Part shown: positions 2,754 to 19,946 of the stretch, one piece after another
How positions within the stretch are numbered: the first letter of the stretch is position 1
Layout: each line of letters opens with the position of its first letter
Source of the DNA: a virus
DNA length: 29,041 nt
Virus record (IMG/VR): IMGVR_UViG_3300033994_002212
Coordinates: 1 to 29,041 of that record
Direction: 5' to 3' (one strand)
The notes under the pieces: generated by a model
Told to the model about the DNA's origin: nothing
Seen by the model: only the letters and a program-made list of their open reading frames with translations
The model's database searches: none
Position numbers and translations under genes: made by a program

Positions 2754-4814
2754 CTATTTTGAGTTATCTGCAATAAGACGGATTTCGCAAGCGTCTGTAG
2801 TGCAGTAAGCCTCACCGATAGCGTCAGAAGCCATTCCAGCATAAACACCAGAGAAGTCGATAGGGAACAACTTCATAGTTGCATCTACATACTCTTCTTC
2901 AGTCATTTGTGTATATGGCATTTGAGGATAAGTAAAGTTTCCTGATGGTAAGAAACTTACAGTTTTTAGTTGTCCGTCATACATATGAAGGACAGTTCCA
3001 ACATGCTCTTTCTCTGTTTCAGGATTAAACGAAATAGTTACAGAGACAGAGTTATCTGACCAGTAGCGTTGTGCAGTTGCTGCAAGCGCCATCTTTTCAA
3101 AAATAGTTACATCTTTTTCTGCACGCTCTGCATCTGATTTGATAGGAAAGAAAACAACAGAAGTTGTGTCAGGTGATTCTGAAGCTGGTTCAACTCTATA
3201 GTTTGCCATTTTAAAAAGTGGAAGCATTGCATCAGAGTTAGCAAAACGAATTGCTCTTAAGAAATACTTTCCACCTGGAGTCCAGTGAACTCCTGGGCTT
3301 TCACCTGCAAGAATTGAAACGGTGCCAGAAGGCTTAACGGTTGTAGTTTTGATTGACTCACGAATACCAAGCCACTCTGAATAAGTTGTGTCGTAGTTCT
3401 TAATATTTTTATAACCTTCATCCATCCAATCACGCAAAATTGGTAAACCAACTTTGTCAGCAAAATTTGCAACACCTGACATAGAAGTACCAATACGACG
3501 ATTACGTTGCATGATTGCGTTTGTCTCTTCCCAGTGAGTTGGAAGAAGAGTTACAGTCTTTGCATAAAGATAAGCGAACTTTAGTGTGCGCTTGTAATCT
3601 TCTAAAGACTCATGACGATTTAGATAAGTTTCAACAAGAGTACACATTTCATATGACTCAAGTGATTGTTCAGCGCAAGGGTTGTAACCTGCAATGCGAT
3701 GATCTTTATTATTAATTGGATCTGCAAGACGGCCATACTTTTTAGAGACATCCATCCAAATAACGCCAGGTTCACCATTGCGAGCGATACCATCAACAAT
3801 TTTTGATAAGTCTTGACCAACGCTAACTGCAACTGAGTTATTACTCATCCAACCCCAGCCAGGAGCTTTTGGATCGTAAGAATTACGCTCTGGAAAAATA
3901 TCAGCATTTTTTAGATTTAAAAACTCATCGTCATCAATAGAGCCAATAAGAAGTTCAGCACTACGACGTACGTTGCCAGATACAACACAAACACCAATTA
4001 AGTTTCCAATATCTGCAATATCTCTTTTTGTTAACTTCTCTCCAGCACGATTGTTAAACAAATTATGTATGTAGTTATGTAGTCTTTCTAGAGGTTCGTG
4101 ACCTGCAGCAGTTCCACCGAAAGTTGAAATAGGTGCGCCAGCAGGACGGATTAGAGAGTAATCAAACTCTAAGCAATTCTGTTCAGGCTTTAAATAAGAA
4201 TTAACAAGCATGGTTAGAGAGTCAACCCAACCCTCGCGAGTGTCAGGAATTTCAAACTTTACGCACTCTTCAGATTTTGGTTTGTAAATTGTAAAATCTT
4301 TTTCAGCACCTTTATCATCAAAGCCAACACCAACGCCAAGCATTGATGCTTCCATTAAAAATCCAAAAGGTTTTGCTGGATCGTTCTTTGTCATTTCTAA
4401 AGTAGAAACAAAAGCACAGTTTTGTAGTGCTGCTGAGTTTCTTTGCTCATTAACAATTGGAGTTCCCATAACCCAAAGTCCACGTCCTGGTGGAGTCCAC
4501 TTCAAATTGAATAAACGATCAAATGCTTCTTTAGCAGATGCTTGACCGCGAGTATCGTTCCAAGGTAAACGGTTAGTTTTGCAATGATCTTTTTGTAATG
4601 AATACATGCCATTAATAACACGCTCACAAACATCAACCCAAGTCTCTTTAGTTCCATCCTCTTTAAGTCGAGAGTAAGTACGAAGAAAAGTAATCTCTCC
4701 AACAGAGTTATCAGCAGCGTCTCTATAACCAAAAGGTGATTTTTTACTTCTGTATCCTGATACAAAGTCCTCTGACAACTTAAAAGACAATACTAATGAC
4801 AATTTCTTCTCCAT
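2754..4814 (-). CDS. nrdJ: adenosylcobalamin-dependent (class II) ribonucleoside-triphosphate reductase
   Basis: The 686-residue protein reduces ribonucleotides to deoxyribonucleotides using a radical made from coenzyme B12. It matches the monomeric Lactobacillus leichmannii type (about 740 aa). Active-site elements are visible: C133 in QNCAFVST, the N378-P-C380-A-E382 loop with the radical cysteine, C391 exactly 11 residues later (same spacing as C408/C419 in L. leichmannii), and the C-terminal CTTDAC pair that recycles the active site. It lies inside the minus-strand operon, and a TATACT hexamer at 4890-4895 on the same strand could be an internal promoter. Its likely role is dNTP supply for replication, which depends on host or environmental cobalamin. 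Confidence 0.95.
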   Translation of the reverse strand: MEKKLSLVLSFKLSEDFVSGYRSKKSPFGYRDAADNSVGEITFLRTYSRLKEDGTKETWVDVCERVINGMYSLQKDHCKTNRLPWNDTRGQASAKEAFDRLFNLKWTPPGRGLWVMGTPIVNEQRNSAALQNCAFVSTLEMTKNDPAKPFGFLMEASMLGVGVGFDDKGAEKDFTIYKPKSEECVKFEIPDTREGWVDSLTMLVNSYLKPEQNCLEFDYSLIRPAGAPISTFGGTAAGHEPLERLHNYIHNLFNNRAGEKLTKRDIADIGNLIGVCVVSGNVRRSAELLIGSIDDDEFLNLKNADIFPERNSYDPKAPGWGWMSNNSVAVSVGQDLSKIVDGIARNGEPGVIWMDVSKKYGRLADPINNKDHRIAGYNPCAEQSLESYEMCTLVETYLNRHESLEDYKRTLKFAYLYAKTVTLLPTHWEETNAIMQRNRRIGTSMSGVANFADKVGLPILRDWMDEGYKNIKNYDTTYSEWLGIRESIKTTTVKPSGTVSILAGESPGVHWTPGGKYFLRAIRFANSDAMLPLFKMANYRVEPASESPDTTSVVFFPIKSDAERAEKDVTIFEKMALAATAQRYWSDNSVSVTISFNPETEKEHVGTVLHMYDGQLKTVSFLPSGNFTYPQMPYTQMTEEEYVDATMKLFPIDFSGVYAGMASDAIGEAYCTTDACEIRLIADNSK

Positions 4815-9303: not shown

Positions 9304-10239
9304 ATGAGCAACGAATTAGAGTTCCTGGGCCCAGACCCAGAAGAAATTGACCCAACGGACTCAATCCCTAGACACGATGACCCAATGGATTTGCGCCCCG
9401 ATCTTTCGCGCATCGGCATCGTTGAGATAGAAAAGGGTGTGTGTGAGGATACCTACGAAAACCGTCAACTCCTACGCCGAAACGAATTTAACTGGGACGC
9501 TGTCTATGACAACTCTGGCCGCCCAACTGGGCTAATCGCGGCTCGCTCTATTGAGTCGTCCCGTGAACGCCGTCTACTTTCACTTGCCGAAAAGAAACCT
9601 CTTCTTTCCGACCCCAACAACACAAACTCAGATTTCATTACGGGCGTCGACCTTATGGCAGATGACGCCGCCTACAAACTTTGCCCACCTTGGGTTGTCG
9701 GTGCTACTCGCGCCTACATAAAGGAACAAGAGCAAGGCGGCCCGAAGTCTTCAAAGCGGGCACCTCTTGGGCTACCTGCTCGGTGCCGCATTGTGAAACC
9801 AGACGGCATCCGATGCCAGCTTTGGTTTAGTGGTCGTATTAAGGATGACGGTCTCTGCCGTATCCATCTAAAAACAATTCGCCGTCCTGGAGCTGACGTT
9901 GAACGGGCAAGACTCAAACTTGTTCAGGCTGCCCCATACGCTGTGGACAAACTTGAACAACTTATGGAAACGGCAATCTCAGAACCCGTCGCCCTTAAAG
10001 CGGCAACAGAGATTCTGGATCGCGCTGGAGTTCGAGGAGGCGTGGAGTTAGATGTCGGTATTGATGTCCAAGACTCACGGCCAGCCCATGTGATTGTTGC
10101 CGAAAGACTTCAACGGCTTGCCGAAGGAGCAACCATGATTGCTGGAGTTTTGGGGGATCAACACAGAGTTATTGACGCCGAGATTGTTGTTACTGAAGAT
10201 TCTGAATCAACCGATGAAGAGAAAGATAAGAAGGACTGA
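9304..10239 (+). CDS. probable terminase small subunit
   Basis: The 311-residue protein fits actinophage small terminases. An unstructured acidic N-terminus is followed by a zinc-type cluster (RCRIVKPDGIRCQLWF...LCRIH, about residues 160-187) and the helical block LKLVQAAPYAVDKLEQLMETAI..PVALKAATEILDRAGVRGG. It would recognise phage DNA for packaging with the large subunit. Its base use differs from its neighbours: arginine is mostly CGC/CGT/CGA rather than AGA, and C-ending codons are common. The large terminase is not adjacent or in the window, which is unusual. No other family fits better. Confidence 0.6.
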   Translation: MSNELEFLGPDPEEIDPTDSIPRHDDPMDLRPDLSRIGIVEIEKGVCEDTYENRQLLRRNEFNWDAVYDNSGRPTGLIAARSIESSRERRLLSLAEKKPLLSDPNNTNSDFITGVDLMADDAAYKLCPPWVVGATRAYIKEQEQGGPKSSKRAPLGLPARCRIVKPDGIRCQLWFSGRIKDDGLCRIHLKTIRRPGADVERARLKLVQAAPYAVDKLEQLMETAISEPVALKAATEILDRAGVRGGVELDVGIDVQDSRPAHVIVAERLQRLAEGATMIAGVLGDQHRVIDAEIVVTEDSESTDEEKDKKD

Positions 10240-10616: not shown

Positions 10617-10813
10617 GGGAAAAACGGCCTGCGCCTTCGCAGGAACTAATAACTTCCCTTTCCTAGCTATATAGCCCCTCCCAGGTGCACGGTTCATTAT
10701 AAAGAAAAACCGTACAGACTTAAAACTAAGGGTGTATGGAAAGCGGCCTGCCCATGTACACATTTATAACGGATTCAATAGGGAAGTGTAGTTTGCATAA
10801 GGTGTAGCTTATG

Positions 10814-10887
10814 TGGGGCGGCTGGGGCTCGAACCCAGGACCGACGGATTATGAGTCCGTAGCTCTAACCAACTGAGCTACCGCCCC
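10814..10887 (-). tRNA. tRNA with CAT anticodon (Met or lysidine-type Ile)
   Basis: On the minus strand a full cloverleaf is present: acceptor GGGGCGG/CCGCCCC, D-arm GCTC..GAGC, anticodon arm ACGGA-CTCATAA-TCCGT and T-arm CTGGG-TTCGAGC-CCCAG. CCA is not encoded. The paired G1-C72 argues against an initiator tRNA. It lies opposite to the surrounding genes. Confidence 0.93.
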
Positions 10888-12152: not shown

Positions 12153-12226
12153 CCCCTTGTAGCTCAGTGGAATAGAGCAAACGGTTTCTACCCGTAAGGT
12201 CGGAGGTTCGAATCCTTTCAAGGGGA
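12153..12226 (+). tRNA. tRNA-Arg (anticodon TCT)
   Basis: The acceptor stem is CCCCTTG/CAAGGGG with discriminator A. The D-arm is GCTC..GAGC, the anticodon loop is TTTCTAC and the T-arm is CGGAGG-TTCGAAT-CCTTTC. The bottom anticodon-stem pair is A-A and the T-stem has weak pairs. It reads AGA/AGG, and AGA is the dominant arginine codon in this window. CCA is not encoded. Confidence 0.9.
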
Positions 12227-12227
12227 C

Positions 12228-12262: not shown

Positions 12263-12985
12263 ATGGAGACACTACAAAGATCTAAAGACAGAAAAGTTGC
12301 TAACGCTGTTTCACGTAATGGCGATCAAGCATTAATTGCTAATACCTTCGGGTTACCTGCAGGAAGAGAATATTCCTGCCCTTCCACAACTTCGATGTGT
12401 GAAAAAGTTTGCTATGCAGGCAAACTAGAAAAGCTGTACAAAAGTGTAAAAGCTGTTCTCACTAGAAACTGGGACTTACTAAAAGACGCCGACTATCAAA
12501 CTATGGTTGAACTATTAAACAACATGGTTTCAGACTTTAGAAAAGACTGCGAAAAGCGCAATGCTGAAAAACTATTTCGCATTCACTGGGACGGCGATTT
12601 CTTCAGTCAACAATATACGTTGGCGTGGAAGCAAGTCATTAAGTCTAATTCTGATATTCAATTCTGGGTTTACACTCGCGTGGCAGCTTCAGCCCAAACA
12701 TTGAATGGGATTGAAAACTTATCTTTATATTTCTCTACGGATGACGACAACATAGAAGTTGCAACTATCTTAAAGAAAAAAGACAACATTCGGCTTGCAT
12801 ACCTTGCAGACAACTTTCAAGTCGGGCAAGCAAAGATGAAAGAGATAACTGGCAAGCCTGGAGCAAAGTGCCCTGAGAATGCTAAAAGATTATCTTTAAT
12901 TTCTACAGACGGATCGGCATGCGTTCGATGTGGTTTATGTGTGTTTAACAAAGCAGACATAGTTTTTAGTGCAAGCAAAAAATAG
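12263..12985 (+). CDS. gp88-like protein (mycobacteriophage gene product 88 family)
   Basis: The 240-residue protein matches the phage gp88 family: FGLPAGREYSCPSTTSMCEKVCYAGK (C39, C46, C50), then FRIHWDGDFFSQQYTLAWKQVI, FWVYTR and LYFSTDDDN. Near the end it has C203 and CVRCGLC (C220, C223, C226), a pattern suited to an iron-sulfur or zinc site. The family is widespread in actinophages and its biochemical role is not established to my knowledge. It starts leaderless or nearly so, 36 nt after tRNA-Arg, under its own promoter. Confidence 0.8.
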   Translation: METLQRSKDRKVANAVSRNGDQALIANTFGLPAGREYSCPSTTSMCEKVCYAGKLEKLYKSVKAVLTRNWDLLKDADYQTMVELLNNMVSDFRKDCEKRNAEKLFRIHWDGDFFSQQYTLAWKQVIKSNSDIQFWVYTRVAASAQTLNGIENLSLYFSTDDDNIEVATILKKKDNIRLAYLADNFQVGQAKMKEITGKPGAKCPENAKRLSLISTDGSACVRCGLCVFNKADIVFSASKK

Positions 12986-13710: not shown

Positions 13711-14340
13711 ATGCCAAACTGGTGTTCAAATGAATTAACAATCAAGGGCGAGAAAGCAGAACTTCAAAAACTTATAGATTTTGTTGGAGCGCCTTATGAA
13801 AGACAATACGCAATGCCACCTAAATACGAGGAAACTGAAACTACAAAGTTTAGTAATCCTGTATTTGCTTTTTGGAATGTAGTAAGACCAGACGAAGAAC
13901 TAATGGAGTCTTACATAAAAAGCGAGGCTTGGTATCAGTGGAATATAAACCATTGGGGAACTAAATGGGATGTTGCAAATGTTGATGGAGAGAACTCTTT
14001 TGAAACTTATGCCTTTCTAGATTTATTAGATAAAGGAGAGATTGGTTATTCTATGTGGACGGCATGGTCTCCATGTATTCCAATTATAGAAATACTTGCA
14101 GAAAAGTTTCCTACCCTTGAGTTCAAAATTATGTATGTTGAGCCAGGCATGCAATTCTGGGGAATAAATGAATATGCAAACGGAGAACTAACAGAAGAAA
14201 GGTATGAAGAAGAACTGAGCCACAAAGCCTATGTAGAAATGGGTGATGTCGGTAGTTGTAATTGTGCCGAAGGAAATGATGAAGAGTATTTCTATTCCGA
14301 TTGCCCAAGAGTAGTTAGCGAAGAAAAAGTTAATTCCTAA
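13711..14340 (+). CDS. Api92-like / YubB ferredoxin-like domain protein
   Basis: The 209-residue protein opens with MPNWCSNELTIKGEKAELQK, the hallmark of the Api92-like/YubB family found on phages and plasmids. It continues with Trp-rich segments (FAFWNVVRP, WYQWNINHWGTKWDV, MWTAWSPC) typical of that fold. A Cys-rich acidic tail (SCNCAEGNDEEYFYSDCP) is present. Its role is unknown; the ferredoxin-like fold does not imply an iron-sulfur centre. GAGAGGAA lies before the ATG in the shared leader. Confidence 0.8.
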   Translation: MPNWCSNELTIKGEKAELQKLIDFVGAPYERQYAMPPKYEETETTKFSNPVFAFWNVVRPDEELMESYIKSEAWYQWNINHWGTKWDVANVDGENSFETYAFLDLLDKGEIGYSMWTAWSPCIPIIEILAEKFPTLEFKIMYVEPGMQFWGINEYANGELTEERYEEELSHKAYVEMGDVGSCNCAEGNDEEYFYSDCPRVVSEEKVNS

Positions 14341-15305: not shown

Positions 15306-15352
15306 AATATTTTTTAGGGGTACTTGACAACAAAAGCTTTAGTCTTTATAAT
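15306..15352 (+). promoter_or_regulatory. promoter of the 15376 gene with box A just upstream
   Basis: Box A (15306-15320) ends 3 bp before TTGACA (15324-15329). A 17-bp spacer leads to TATAAT (15347-15352). AAGGAGA follows as ribosome site. There is no TTGTCAG box. Confidence 0.85.
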
Positions 15353-15663: not shown

Positions 15664-15692
15664 TTGCAAATGTCACTTGGATAATGTATTAT
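15664..15692 (+). promoter_or_regulatory. promoter of the 15719-17345 operon
   Basis: TTGCAA (15664-15669), ATGTCAC (15670-15676, variant box), 10 nt, TATTAT (15687-15692). The leader is TAGAAAGGAAAGTGAGGAAAC. Confidence 0.8.
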
Positions 15693-15718
15693 AGAGTTAG
15701 AAAGGAAAGTGAGGAAAC

Positions 15719-16231
15719 ATGATTGACAAAGAAAGTAAAGTACAAGGTTATTCCGTGTACGCAGAACTTGGAAGAGAAGATAAATTATCTCTCGTTCAAT
15801 TCTTTATCACTCCTGACGGATATACAGAGGTAGGACAGTTTGTCCCTGCTCGTTTGTATTACCGACAATTACACTCTCATGCACCAAAGCGTCAATGGCG
15901 TATTACAACCATTAACGAAGCAAATGCCATGAGTTTGATTGAATCAGGTAGTTCAATTAGTGCTATCTACCCAGCAAAGTCTAGAGAAGAGTTTGTGATT
16001 GAGAGATTACAAGGCAACTTTAGAAGTATAGTTCAGAGACTTATTATGGGTTCGGGTTCAGGTGGTTCAGCAAATTGGAAACTTATTTACAACCCAATAG
16101 TTGTAGAAGTTTCTAATAAGGATATGAGAGATGTTGCTTTAAGTAGAACTCCTACAAAAGTTGTCTATCGTATTCAACAGGCGAAAAAGGGTATGAAATA
16201 TCCAGAAGCGCTAACAATAACCAAAAGATAA
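15719..16231 (+). CDS. hypothetical protein, first gene of the AAA+ operon
   Basis: This 170-residue protein is not recognised. It has a beta-rich N-terminal half (YSVYAELGREDKLSLVQFFITPDGYTEVGQFVPARLYY), a helical middle (EEFVIERLQGNFRSIVQRLI) and a Gly/Ser linker GSGSGGS. It shares a promoter with the AAA+ ATPase, 25 bp upstream of it, so it may be a partner or adaptor of that machine (inference from position). Confidence 0.7.
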   Translation: MIDKESKVQGYSVYAELGREDKLSLVQFFITPDGYTEVGQFVPARLYYRQLHSHAPKRQWRITTINEANAMSLIESGSSISAIYPAKSREEFVIERLQGNFRSIVQRLIMGSGSGGSANWKLIYNPIVVEVSNKDMRDVALSRTPTKVVYRIQQAKKGMKYPEALTITKR

Positions 16232-16256
16232 TTGTTCAGAGAAAAGTGAGGAAAAT

Positions 16257-17345
16257 ATGAACAACGAAGAATTAAAAGATAAATTAAAAGAGTTAGGTCC
16301 TAGTGGTGTTGCAACTTTTGAACAACCATTAGTTAGTCGTACCCTTTGGGAAATGCTAGTTGATGTAACAACTCAGAAACTTGATGTTGAAGCACAACTA
16401 AGACTTAACTCAGATGTTACGCCTTACGGAAGATTTATAGAAAGAGCGTCAGGTGAAGCACGCAAACCAAGAGCTGTGAGAAAAACAGTTGTTGCACTTG
16501 ATGAAACTTCTCAGGAAGATATTTATATTCGTCCAAATGGCGATAAGTATCATGCTCGCAAGTGGGGAAACTTTCAAGATGTTTCTGCACTACGCAAAGC
16601 AAGAGAAGCAACACAAAAGTATTTCTCTGAAAGTATTGGTTCACCAATGTTTACCATGCTTTATGGTGCGCCAGGAACAGGTAAAACTGCACTTATCGAG
16701 GCTGCGTTTGCAGAACAAGAGGGTGGAGTTTACACACTCATGGGAACAGGTGATACAGAAGTCGCTGATTTAGTTGGTGGTTATGTACAAACTCCTAGTG
16801 GTGGTTTCGAGTGGATTGACGGAGATTTAGTAAAAGCTGCAGAAAATGGTGGCGTTTACTTTGTTGATGAAATTGGTTTGATTGACCCGAAAGTTTTATC
16901 TGTACTTTACGGACTAATGGACGGACGCAGAGAATTAAAAGTCAATGCGAATCCTGAAAGACCAATAGTTAAAGCAGACCCCAATTTCTTTGTGGTTGCT
17001 GCAACTAATCCAAATGCTCCAGGAGTTAGATTAAGTGAAGCATTAGTTTCTCGTTTCACTTTGCAAGCAGAAATGACAACTGATTGGGACCTTGCTCGCA
17101 AGTTAGGTGTACCAACAACTTTAGTTACTGCTGCACAAAACCTATCTAAGAAACAAAGTTCAGGCGAAACTTCTTGGGCACCACAAATGCGAGAACTTCT
17201 TGCGTTTCGTGATATCAACAATGAGTTTGGAACTGACTTTGCAATTTCAAACTTGCTCGCGTCCTCACCTGAGTTGGACAGACCTTTAGTGGCTGATGTC
17301 CTAACTCGAGTGTTTGGCGAAGAGTGCAGACCTGCCAAGATTTAG
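16257..17345 (+). CDS. MoxR/CobS-like AAA+ ATPase
   Basis: The 362-residue ATPase has Walker A GAPGTGKT (137-144), Walker B VYFVDEIG (about 200-207), sensor-1 ATNPN (about 249-253) and an SRF motif (265-267) at the arginine-finger position. The inserted GGVYFVDEIGLIDPKVLSVLYGLMDGRREL segment is typical of the AAA_5/MoxR group. These rings remodel partner proteins and usually act with a VWA-domain protein, which is the next gene. GTGAGG precedes the ATG. Cyanophages carry the related cobS, but cobaltochelatase activity is not implied here. Confidence 0.93.
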   Translation: MNNEELKDKLKELGPSGVATFEQPLVSRTLWEMLVDVTTQKLDVEAQLRLNSDVTPYGRFIERASGEARKPRAVRKTVVALDETSQEDIYIRPNGDKYHARKWGNFQDVSALRKAREATQKYFSESIGSPMFTMLYGAPGTGKTALIEAAFAEQEGGVYTLMGTGDTEVADLVGGYVQTPSGGFEWIDGDLVKAAENGGVYFVDEIGLIDPKVLSVLYGLMDGRRELKVNANPERPIVKADPNFFVVAATNPNAPGVRLSEALVSRFTLQAEMTTDWDLARKLGVPTTLVTAAQNLSKKQSSGETSWAPQMRELLAFRDINNEFGTDFAISNLLASSPELDRPLVADVLTRVFGEECRPAKI

Positions 17346-17364
17346 CCTCACTTTCTCTTGGCAG
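17332..17364 (+). repeat. hairpin at the end of the AAA+ gene
   Basis: CTGCCAAGA (17332-17340, in the last codons) is exactly complementary to TCTTGGCAG (17356-17364). No T-run follows; it may slow or partly stop transcription before the VWA gene promoter. Confidence 0.6.
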
Positions 17365-17371
17365 ACATGGG

Positions 17372-17411
17372 GGGTGGGAGTTTGACTCTCACCCCTTTCA
17401 TGCTCTATAAT
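17372..17411 (+). promoter_or_regulatory. promoter of the VWA gene, -35 inside a hairpin loop
   Basis: TTGACT (17382-17387) and TATAAT (17406-17411) are 18 bp apart. The -35 lies between GGGGTGGGAG and CTCTCACCCC, an inverted repeat that may be an operator. Confidence 0.8.
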
Positions 17412-17435
17412 AGATTATGAAAGGACACAAATATT

Positions 17436-19211
17436 ATGGGACACATTAAATTAAATGAAACACGCGCACAAGTTACTCCTAGCGAGTGGTTGAAAGTTGG
17501 CGCAAATATAACAACTCTAGTAAATGAGTTTGCTAGAAGAAGCGACTTAGTTGCTTATGTAGGACCTAATGCAGGTGGTTCTGCCCCTGCATGCTTTATT
17601 CCAGAAACAGCAGAAATAGAAGTAAATGTAGGTATTGCTTTTGGTAATGCAACAACACCAGAACAAATTAAAGATTTAACACAAAGAAAGAATCAGTTTG
17701 AGTTTCCAAAAGCTGTAGGTGCAATCTTGCATGAAGCGTTCCACGCTAGGTTCTCTAGGTGGGATATTAAAAAAGCCATGGAAGAATTGACAGATAAAGA
17801 TGAGTTTGACGCTTTAATGTTGTTAGAAGAATCTCGTATTGAGGGTAGAGGTTTATCAACTGATAACACCTTTCGTCCTTTCTTGCGCTCCTGCGCTATG
17901 GAAATTGTTGTAGATGAAGCAGAGGAAAAGTTTAAGAACTCTTCTTCTGTATCTTCTGCTGCCTTTTTAGTTGGTTTAGTATTAGCAAGAGTTGAAGCAG
18001 GAGTTCTACTTGAAGAAGAAGTAGAAAGTCTTAGCAAAATTCTTAATGATTTCTTAGGAGCAGAATTAGTTTCTAAGTTAGTTGAACTTGCCCGAAAGTT
18101 TCAGACACACACTATAGATACAAATATGGAATTAACTTATCCAATCGCAAAAGAGTGGGTAAAACTTATTCGTGAAAAGAAAGAAGAAAAAGGCGAAAAT
18201 AATGAAGAGAACAAACAACTACAACAAATGTTTGTTGAAGCATTAAAAGAAGCTTTACAAGAAACTAAAGACCAAGTTGAAACTTCTTCCACTAGCGAAG
18301 TTATAGAAATGGAACAAGACGAAGAGTGGAAAGAAATTGTTAAAGGAAGAAAAGACAGGTCAAAGTTAGAAGAAGAGCATACAGAAATTGCAAAAGAAGT
18401 TTATTCAGACGGAACTTCTGCAACAGATAACTCTACTTCTAGCGTAATAGTTGATGTTAGAAAACCTAACTCTGACGAAAGAGTTGCAGCAGTAAAAGTT
18501 GCACAGATACTTGAACGCGCAAAATATCGCGAGCGTGACGAGTTTGAAATTAACAGCGTAACTCCTCCAGGAAGATTGCGTACTCGTAGTTTGGTTCAAG
18601 CAAGTGCTATGAAAGAACGAGGAGTTAACACTCCTACCGAAGCGTGGCGCAGAACTATACGCAAACACACAGAGGACCCAACTTTGTCTGTAGGAATTAT
18701 GGTTGACATTTCAGGGTCAATGCACCCTGCCATGGGACCAATGGCTTCAACAGCGTGGATTATGAGTGAAGCAGTTAGAAGAGTACAAGGTAAAGTTTCT
18801 ATGGTTTACTTTGGAAATTCTGTATTCCCAACTTTACGAGTAGGTCAGAAGTTGGATAATGTGACAACTTATTCAGCAGTTGATAATACTGAACAGTTTG
18901 ACAGAGGATTTAAGGCGTTAAATGGAAACCTTAATTTACTCGGTGGTCGAGGTGCAAGATTATTAGTTGTTGTTAGTGACGCTAACTACAAAAGAGTCGA
19001 GGCAGAAAAGGCTTTGCGTTGGGTACAGGAGTGCGCTAAGTCAGGCGTTGGAGTGTTGTTTATTCCAATCCACCAAGATTATTATGCACAAAAGTTGTGT
19101 AACAACACAGGTGCAGTAGTTTTGTCGGGTACAGTTAATCCAGCAGAAGTTGCCACAGAAATTGGTAAAGCGGCAGGCAAGGCGCTACAAAAAGCATCGG
19201 TTGCCCCTTAA
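17436..19211 (+). CDS. CobT-like VWA protein with N-terminal metallopeptidase motif
   Basis: The 591-residue protein has three parts. Residues about 1-240 contain HEAFH (99-103) followed by LLEESRIEGR (about 129-138), the zinc-protease-like pair seen in VWA-associated putative metallopeptidases. Residues about 245-345 are highly charged, Glu/Lys-rich linker. Residues about 415-591 are a VWA domain with the MIDAS motif DISGS (424-428). With the MoxR ATPase upstream this is an AAA+/VWA chaperone pair like CobS/CobT. AAGGA lies 12 nt before the ATG; a 10-codon frame (17417-17449) begins earlier in the leader. Confidence 0.88.
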   Translation: MGHIKLNETRAQVTPSEWLKVGANITTLVNEFARRSDLVAYVGPNAGGSAPACFIPETAEIEVNVGIAFGNATTPEQIKDLTQRKNQFEFPKAVGAILHEAFHARFSRWDIKKAMEELTDKDEFDALMLLEESRIEGRGLSTDNTFRPFLRSCAMEIVVDEAEEKFKNSSSVSSAAFLVGLVLARVEAGVLLEEEVESLSKILNDFLGAELVSKLVELARKFQTHTIDTNMELTYPIAKEWVKLIREKKEEKGENNEENKQLQQMFVEALKEALQETKDQVETSSTSEVIEMEQDEEWKEIVKGRKDRSKLEEEHTEIAKEVYSDGTSATDNSTSSVIVDVRKPNSDERVAAVKVAQILERAKYRERDEFEINSVTPPGRLRTRSLVQASAMKERGVNTPTEAWRRTIRKHTEDPTLSVGIMVDISGSMHPAMGPMASTAWIMSEAVRRVQGKVSMVYFGNSVFPTLRVGQKLDNVTTYSAVDNTEQFDRGFKALNGNLNLLGGRGARLLVVVSDANYKRVEAEKALRWVQECAKSGVGVLFIPIHQDYYAQKLCNNTGAVVLSGTVNPAEVATEIGKAAGKALQKASVAP

Positions 19212-19402: not shown

Positions 19403-19431
19403 TTGACAAGCGGCTTGACTTACTCTATAAT
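19403..19431 (+). promoter_or_regulatory. consensus leaderless promoter of the 19438 gene
   Basis: TTGACA (19403-19408), 17 bp, TATAAT (19426-19431). TATAAT occupies -12 to -7 of the ATG, so transcription should start at the start codon. No ribosome site. Confidence 0.9.
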
Positions 19432-19916: not shown

Positions 19917-19946
19917 TTGACTTTTGTCAGTTGTTAGTTATATAAT
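19917..19946 (+). promoter_or_regulatory. TTGTCAG-type promoter of the 19973 gene
   Basis: TTGACT (19917-19922), TTGTCAG (19924-19930), 10 nt, TATAAT (19941-19946), then leader TAGAAAGAGAGGAAAC. Confidence 0.9.

Follow-up and report, generated by a model that had tools for sequence, protein, structure and literature searches.

Pairs of a MoxR-type AAA+ ATPase and a VWA-domain protein are already known from phages, where they have been published both as a viral 'CobST', the reading proposed by Liu et al. (PMC8651126), and, in jumbo phages, as a MoxR-vWA chaperone pair with a metallopeptidase, for which Iyer et al. (2021) proposed a role in virion assembly (PMC7824862). A MoxR-VWA pair of Acidianus two-tailed virus (ATV) is linked to tail development, according to papers that cite the work on it (PMC7824862, PMC7159879), and in the NorQ-NorD (NorQD) system a finger sits in the pore and the linker between the N-terminal and VWA domains is twisted (PMC13036017). 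Here we describe a locus of this kind in a 29-kb virus fragment from IMG/VR (IMGVR_UViG_3300033994_002212), whose entire 29,041 nt we call the window. It comprises three plus-strand genes, encoding a 170-aa protein (hereafter the third gene, although first in order), a MoxR-like ATPase and a 591-aa protein with HEAFH, EESR and DISGS motifs, all lying where a first-pass annotation made from the DNA alone had placed them. The module is genuine and conserved, and with its three genes it is a variant of a viral module already known under conflicting functional readings. Two features are new: the third gene, which is conserved yet has no known relatives, and the occurrence of homologous ATPase-VWA pairs in genomes of Streptomyces and Amycolatopsis. 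Our preferred reading, to which we assign a probability of about 0.6, is a phage MoxR AAA+/VWA machine of the NorQD type that remodels its target, carries a zinc-peptidase-like effector and is encoded outside the structural genes. The parts of the module are as follows.

15664–15692, plus strand: promoter-like site TTGCAA-17-TATTAT before the three-gene set (consensus scan 9/12, a weak score at which chance matches are common)
15719–16231, plus strand: third gene, 170 aa, a conserved neighbour directly upstream of the ATPase gene
16257–17345, plus strand: MoxR/NorQ/CbbQ-type AAA+ ATPase, 362 aa
17382–17411, plus strand: promoter-like site TTGACT-18-TATAAT between the ATPase and VWA genes (consensus scan 11/12)
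17436–19211, plus strand: 591-aa protein with an N-terminal zincin-like domain, a helical linker and a C-terminal VWA/MIDAS domain
17730–17744, plus strand: HEAFH, residues 99–103, putative zinc-binding and catalytic motif
17826–17843, plus strand: EESRIE, residues 131–136, candidate third metal ligand
18564–18575, plus strand: PPGR, residues 377–380, proposed 'finger' tip as in NorD, conserved without change in eight divergent phages
18705–18719, plus strand: DISGS, residues 424–428, MIDAS motif of the VWA domain

We favour a remodelling machine because the gene set is fixed, the HExxH and EExRxE motifs are intact, the proteins match NorD, NorQ, midasin and CbbQ, and the position is non-structural. 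The gene set was assessed by a profile scan of IMG/VR with the VWA protein, which gave 240 relatives, 80 loci of which were kept for neighbourhood comparison. The order of third gene, ATPase and VWA gene is fixed in 74 of the 80, the other six ending at a contig edge, so that the third gene precedes the ATPase gene in every non-truncated locus (74/74). The closest named relative, Actinomycetia phage DSL-LC01 from lake water, has the same three genes in identical order (identity to the window 27% for the third gene, 64% for the ATPase and 47% for the VWA protein); at the DNA level, public phage records gave no match to the window's first 25 kb. The carrier of the three-gene set is a freshwater actinobacterial virus. 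Beyond that set, the ATPase accompanies the VWA protein in all 21 public phage records that hold the latter, including Microbacterium phages in which the two genes lie about 30 kb apart yet are co-present. The first-pass annotation had named a lack of co-occurrence of the three genes elsewhere as grounds for refutation, and this check did not refute it. The Gordonia (Phendrix, Sixama, GMA2) and Microbacterium (Pumpernickel, A3Wally) modules have a homologous ATPase and VWA protein with invariant motifs, but those of Gordonia differ in placing a 227–263-aa protein between the two genes. GenBank labels the Microbacterium and Gordonia VWA proteins 'AAA-ATPase' (L002:5959-7686, L006:5956-7929, L003:4519-6789); the real ATPase is another gene.

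The ATPase is an AAA_5/MoxR protein (PF07728, 2.9e-21) with further hits to phrog_16448 'ATPase' (4.7e-49) and phrog_249 'porphyrin biosynthesis' (3e-26). All three motifs looked for in the ATPase of a MoxR AAA+/VWA pair are intact: Walker A (GAPGTGKTA), Walker B (VYFVDE) and sensor 1 (ATNPN). Their residues are invariant or nearly so in the alignment. Its best PDB profile matches are midasin (1.7e-64), NorQ (3e-13) and CbbQ (3.4e-10); CobS is absent among such matches at E<=1e-4.

The 591-aa protein has no significant Pfam or PHROG match of its own, and we call it a VWA protein because relatives match VWA_CoxE (4e-4 in phage relatives, 3e-7 in one cellular protein) and because of its fold. 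An AlphaFold model of good overall confidence (mean pLDDT 88.4, with most of the N-terminal 250 residues above 90) finds its best PDB match, by Foldseek at full length, in the VWA domain of NorD in complex with NorQ (3.9e-6), followed by other VWA domains including the MIDAS domain of midasin. HExxH, EExRxE and the MIDAS signature DxSxS are each present in 74/74 distinct VWA proteins among the IMG/VR relatives. H99, E100 and H103 are invariant, and the key residues stay constant across freshwater, Microbacterium and Gordonia phages, although the Microbacterium and Gordonia proteins share only 22–34% identity with that of the window. Such conservation across clades indicates that HEAFH, EESRIE and DISGS are not chance occurrences. 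In the model, HEAFH lies on helix 91–106 and EESRIE on helix 121–142, confidently predicted neighbouring helices that follow three short strands, an order of strands and helices that would be the one expected of an HExxH+E zincin, with its downstream glutamate on the second helix. The zinc-protease-like effector is predicted, from its motifs, to be probably active. PPGR lies 44–47 residues ahead of DISGS and, by analogy with NorD, is a candidate fingertip. Viral fold matches of comparable length include Gordonia phages GMA2 and Sixama, Brevibacterium phage Cantare and haloarchaeal tailed viruses; their TM-scores are low (0.2–0.4), which is not surprising for multidomain proteins whose linkers are flexible. 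Membership of the putative metallopeptidase family DUF2201_N (PF13203) was rejected, neither the window nor nine other phage records giving a match at E<=10.

Pairs of similar build are more widely distributed. In the jumbo-phage MoxR-vWA pair (PMC7824862; compared by description) and in the cyanophage pairing of the phrog_459 'peptidase' with CobS, an AAA+ protein likewise adjoins an HExxH-VWA protein, and LEDxRIE is common to the cyanophage and actinophage members of these metallopeptidase pairs; HExxH together with LEDxRIE was found in the cyanophage, Gordonia and Brevibacterium phage partners. The jumbo-phage and cyanophage phrog_459 system differs in its low sequence similarity, the profile match being confined to the VWA part (7e-13). 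Gene order is reversed, with VWA before ATPase, in the cyanophage, pelagiphage, nickie and ICP2 pairs, where the third gene was not seen. With NorQ-NorD and CbbQ-CbbO the phage pair has the ATPase family and the VWA fold in common. NorD differs in acting on nitric oxide reductase; the NorD paper makes no mention of HExxH and describes the N-terminal domains of NorD and CbbO as mutually unrelated.

The third gene, besides its place in the IMG/VR loci, is recognizable in DSL-LC01 and in a contig (L108) of an Aquiluna metagenome-assembled genome (MAG; 3e-16). It matched no Pfam family, and a confident model of its product (pLDDT 88.8) has no PDB fold match at E<=0.001; in a PDB profile search, the sole hit above noise was a weak one (0.0033), to a decarboxylase unrelated to it. 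From gene order, the 170-aa protein is a candidate adaptor or partner of the ATPase-VWA pair. Two Amycolatopsis loci have, in the slot that the third gene takes in phages, a gene for a WGR-domain protein just before the ATPase gene (L109:4299-5015, L111:4527-4949). The shared slot is suggestive of a WGR protein, but the profile similarity to the phage third gene is not significant (E 0.14), and none of 39 members has a Pfam WGR match. Neither the gene that separates the pair in Gordonia phage Sixama nor Orf60 of GMA6 shows similarity to the third gene. Downstream in one of the Amycolatopsis loci lies a gene for a NADAR/YpsA-SLOG protein (L109:7909-9033).

When homologues were sought beyond phages, by a genome scan that was then followed up, the VWA protein turned up with an adjoining ATPase in Amycolatopsis, Streptomyces and Streptacidiphilus, some of these copies possibly being prophage. 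The VWA protein occurs in 21/100 relatives of one Streptomyces genome. Of 24 actinobacterial open frames, fragments among them, 20 have both HExxH and E(E/D)xRxE at the right spacing. The Aquiluna contig holds all three genes and may be a phage binned with the MAG. That the actinobacterial copies travel as cargo of relaxase-bearing mobile elements was considered and rejected, a relaxase lying near the pair in only 1/21 genomes.

How might such a machine work? The ATPase would form a hexameric ring, as its family membership suggests. If NorQD and midasin are a guide, the C-terminal VWA domain would dock on this ring with its finger in the pore, and the MIDAS would hold an acidic residue of the target. 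ATP-driven rotation could then twist or open the target, and by analogy with NorQD (PMC13036017) ATP turnover would also put a twist on the helical linker that joins the VWA domain to the N-terminal one. Held by this tether, the N-terminal HExxH+E domain may clip the target, a step to which the conservation of its motifs points. The 170-aa protein might serve as a lineage-specific adaptor or partner, in keeping with the fixed gene order.

Several points weigh against this proposal. Foldseek, run with the full-length model, returned VWA domains or VWA-containing proteins and no zincin among its 50 best PDB matches; motifs and helix order are therefore the basis of the zincin assignment. The conserved metal site might deliver metal instead of cleaving, since NorQD inserts iron. 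Furthermore, gene position is indirect evidence on timing.

Position bears on one alternative, that of a chaperone-protease for virion assembly or maturation, as proposed for jumbo phages after the ATV pair (PMC7824862). The architecture is the same as that of the jumbo-phage pair, and there is a weak fold match (4.3e-4) to ORF892 of ATV, the virus whose own MoxR-VWA pair the citing papers connect with the tail. In DSL-LC01, however, the module lies at 26.7–30.1 kb among small genes, outside a structural block at about 44–83 kb that carries its own annotated capsid maturation proteases. Related pairs in other phages adjoin the sliding clamp and clamp loader, DNA ligase and polymerase, or primase and helicase. 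Both the position outside the structural block and these replication neighbours mildly favour an intracellular, non-virion role. For the homologous pairs in actinobacterial genomes a virion role is also not obvious, although some may be prophage remnants. We therefore consider a virion role unlikely and an intracellular host or phage complex a more likely target than a virion part. About 8 kb downstream of the DSL-LC01 module, at 37959–38648 (L140:660-1349), lies a gene annotated as an HslV-like subunit of an ATP-dependent protease, with a WhiB regulator after it.

A second alternative dispenses with proteolysis: the pair would be a metal-centre activase that inserts or repairs a metal cofactor as NorQD does, with HExxH+E as the metal-delivery site. 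NorQ and NorD, the nearest structural relatives, do act in metal insertion, placing iron in nitric oxide reductase. However, the HExxH glutamate, which is catalytic in peptidases and dispensable for merely holding zinc, is invariant, and the carriers of the module were not seen to share any metalloenzyme, their reductases being of different classes or missing. We consider the activase about as unlikely as the virion chaperone.

A third alternative, about as unlikely as the other two, is viral CobST, in which the pair replaces the CobS/CobT motor, uses host CobN and raises cobalamin for a class II reductase (PMC8651126). In its favour, the ATPase matches a PHROG family named for porphyrin biosynthesis, the VWA protein of DSL-LC01 is annotated 'cobalamin biosynthesis protein', and an adenosylcobalamin-dependent reductase, present in the window (TIGR02505, 7e-103), accompanies the module in 12/14 large IMG/VR records as well as in DSL-LC01. 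CobS-CobT shares with the phage pair an AAA+ ATPase and a C-terminal VWA domain with a MIDAS. Towards its N-terminus CobT also has an E-x-x-R-x-E helix, and it is here that the phage protein shows weak remote similarity to it (E 0.08; 0.026). But cellular CobT (Sinorhizobium, Pandoraea), while keeping this helix, has HDxxxH in place of the phage HExxH, and the window protein has no match to the CobT family PF06213 at E<=10, a search in which the Caulobacter control genome was positive. CobN, searched for in a scope that leaves out the hosts of the cyanophage, Vibrio and pelagic phages, was found in 0/20 phage records and, the window's own host not being identified, in 0/200 genomes of the family of the Aquiluna carrier MAG (5/14 control genomes were positive). 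Nor did CobN turn up in the Aquiluna MAG carrying all three genes, where the module contig may be co-binned phage, or in a module-carrying Streptomyces genome (G019). The link to a class II reductase, tried as a general rule, holds only in the freshwater clade: module-bearing Microbacterium phages have a class Ib reductase, the related pairs in cyanophage S-CAM22, pelagiphage HTVC008M and Pseudomonas phage nickie come with class I reductases, and no reductase was seen in three Gordonia module phages, GMA6, Cantare, Chidiebere or ICP2. With no CobT Pfam match, no CobN found and no general link to B12, a cobaltochelatase is unlikely in this lineage. In Sinorhizobium meliloti, a DnaJ-domain gene lies directly upstream of cobS-cobT (L091:1954-2589).

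The first-pass annotation had likewise ranked a cobaltochelatase role as less likely, and its module, its ATPase-VWA pairing and its inclusion of the third gene also stand; the host or virion complex that it suggested as the target stays conditional. Returning to the remodelling machine, we tentatively extend it to a broader, B12-independent family of ATP-driven zinc proteases in phages and actinobacteria, in which motor and MIDAS would feed the target to the HExxH site and CobT, with HDxxxH but ExxRxE kept, would be a relative that has lost catalysis and been co-opted for metal insertion. We regard this extension as possible rather than probable.

Two details of the earlier description need adjusting. 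The proposal that the module forms one operon holds for the third gene and the ATPase gene, which are separated by 25 bases, whereas the VWA gene is preceded by a promoter-like site of its own (17382–17411). The module genes had also been called the largest accessory genes; no gene in the window is as large as that of the class II reductase (686 aa, 2754–4814, minus strand), which lies outside the module. Sigma-70-type promoter sites scoring 11–12/12 (TTGACA/TTGACT-17/18-TATAAT) precede cassettes at 15324–15352, 17382–17411, 19403–19431 and 19917–19946, and promoter-like sites in the window number 17 against 9.3 expected. Upstream of the module lie genes for a phage GP88-family protein (12263–12985; PF17338, 6.9e-53) and a protein with an Api92-like C-terminal domain (13711–14340; PF18406, 1.8e-10). 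Farther upstream, a 311-aa open reading frame without a Pfam match (9304–10239) sits in an island of raised GC content (0.49, compared with about 0.38 elsewhere), near tRNA-Met (10813–10887, minus strand) and tRNA-Arg (12153–12227, plus strand).

Virus surveys often count phage 'cobS/cobT' as auxiliary vitamin B12 genes. Our results suggest that this label is wrong at least in the lineage described here and its relatives, and that viral cobS/cobT-like genes may instead encode machines that remodel or cut proteins. Because the motif of the putative active site is intact, a direct test between two published, conflicting proposals would be simple, and the Streptomyces homologues offer a tractable laboratory version of the system.

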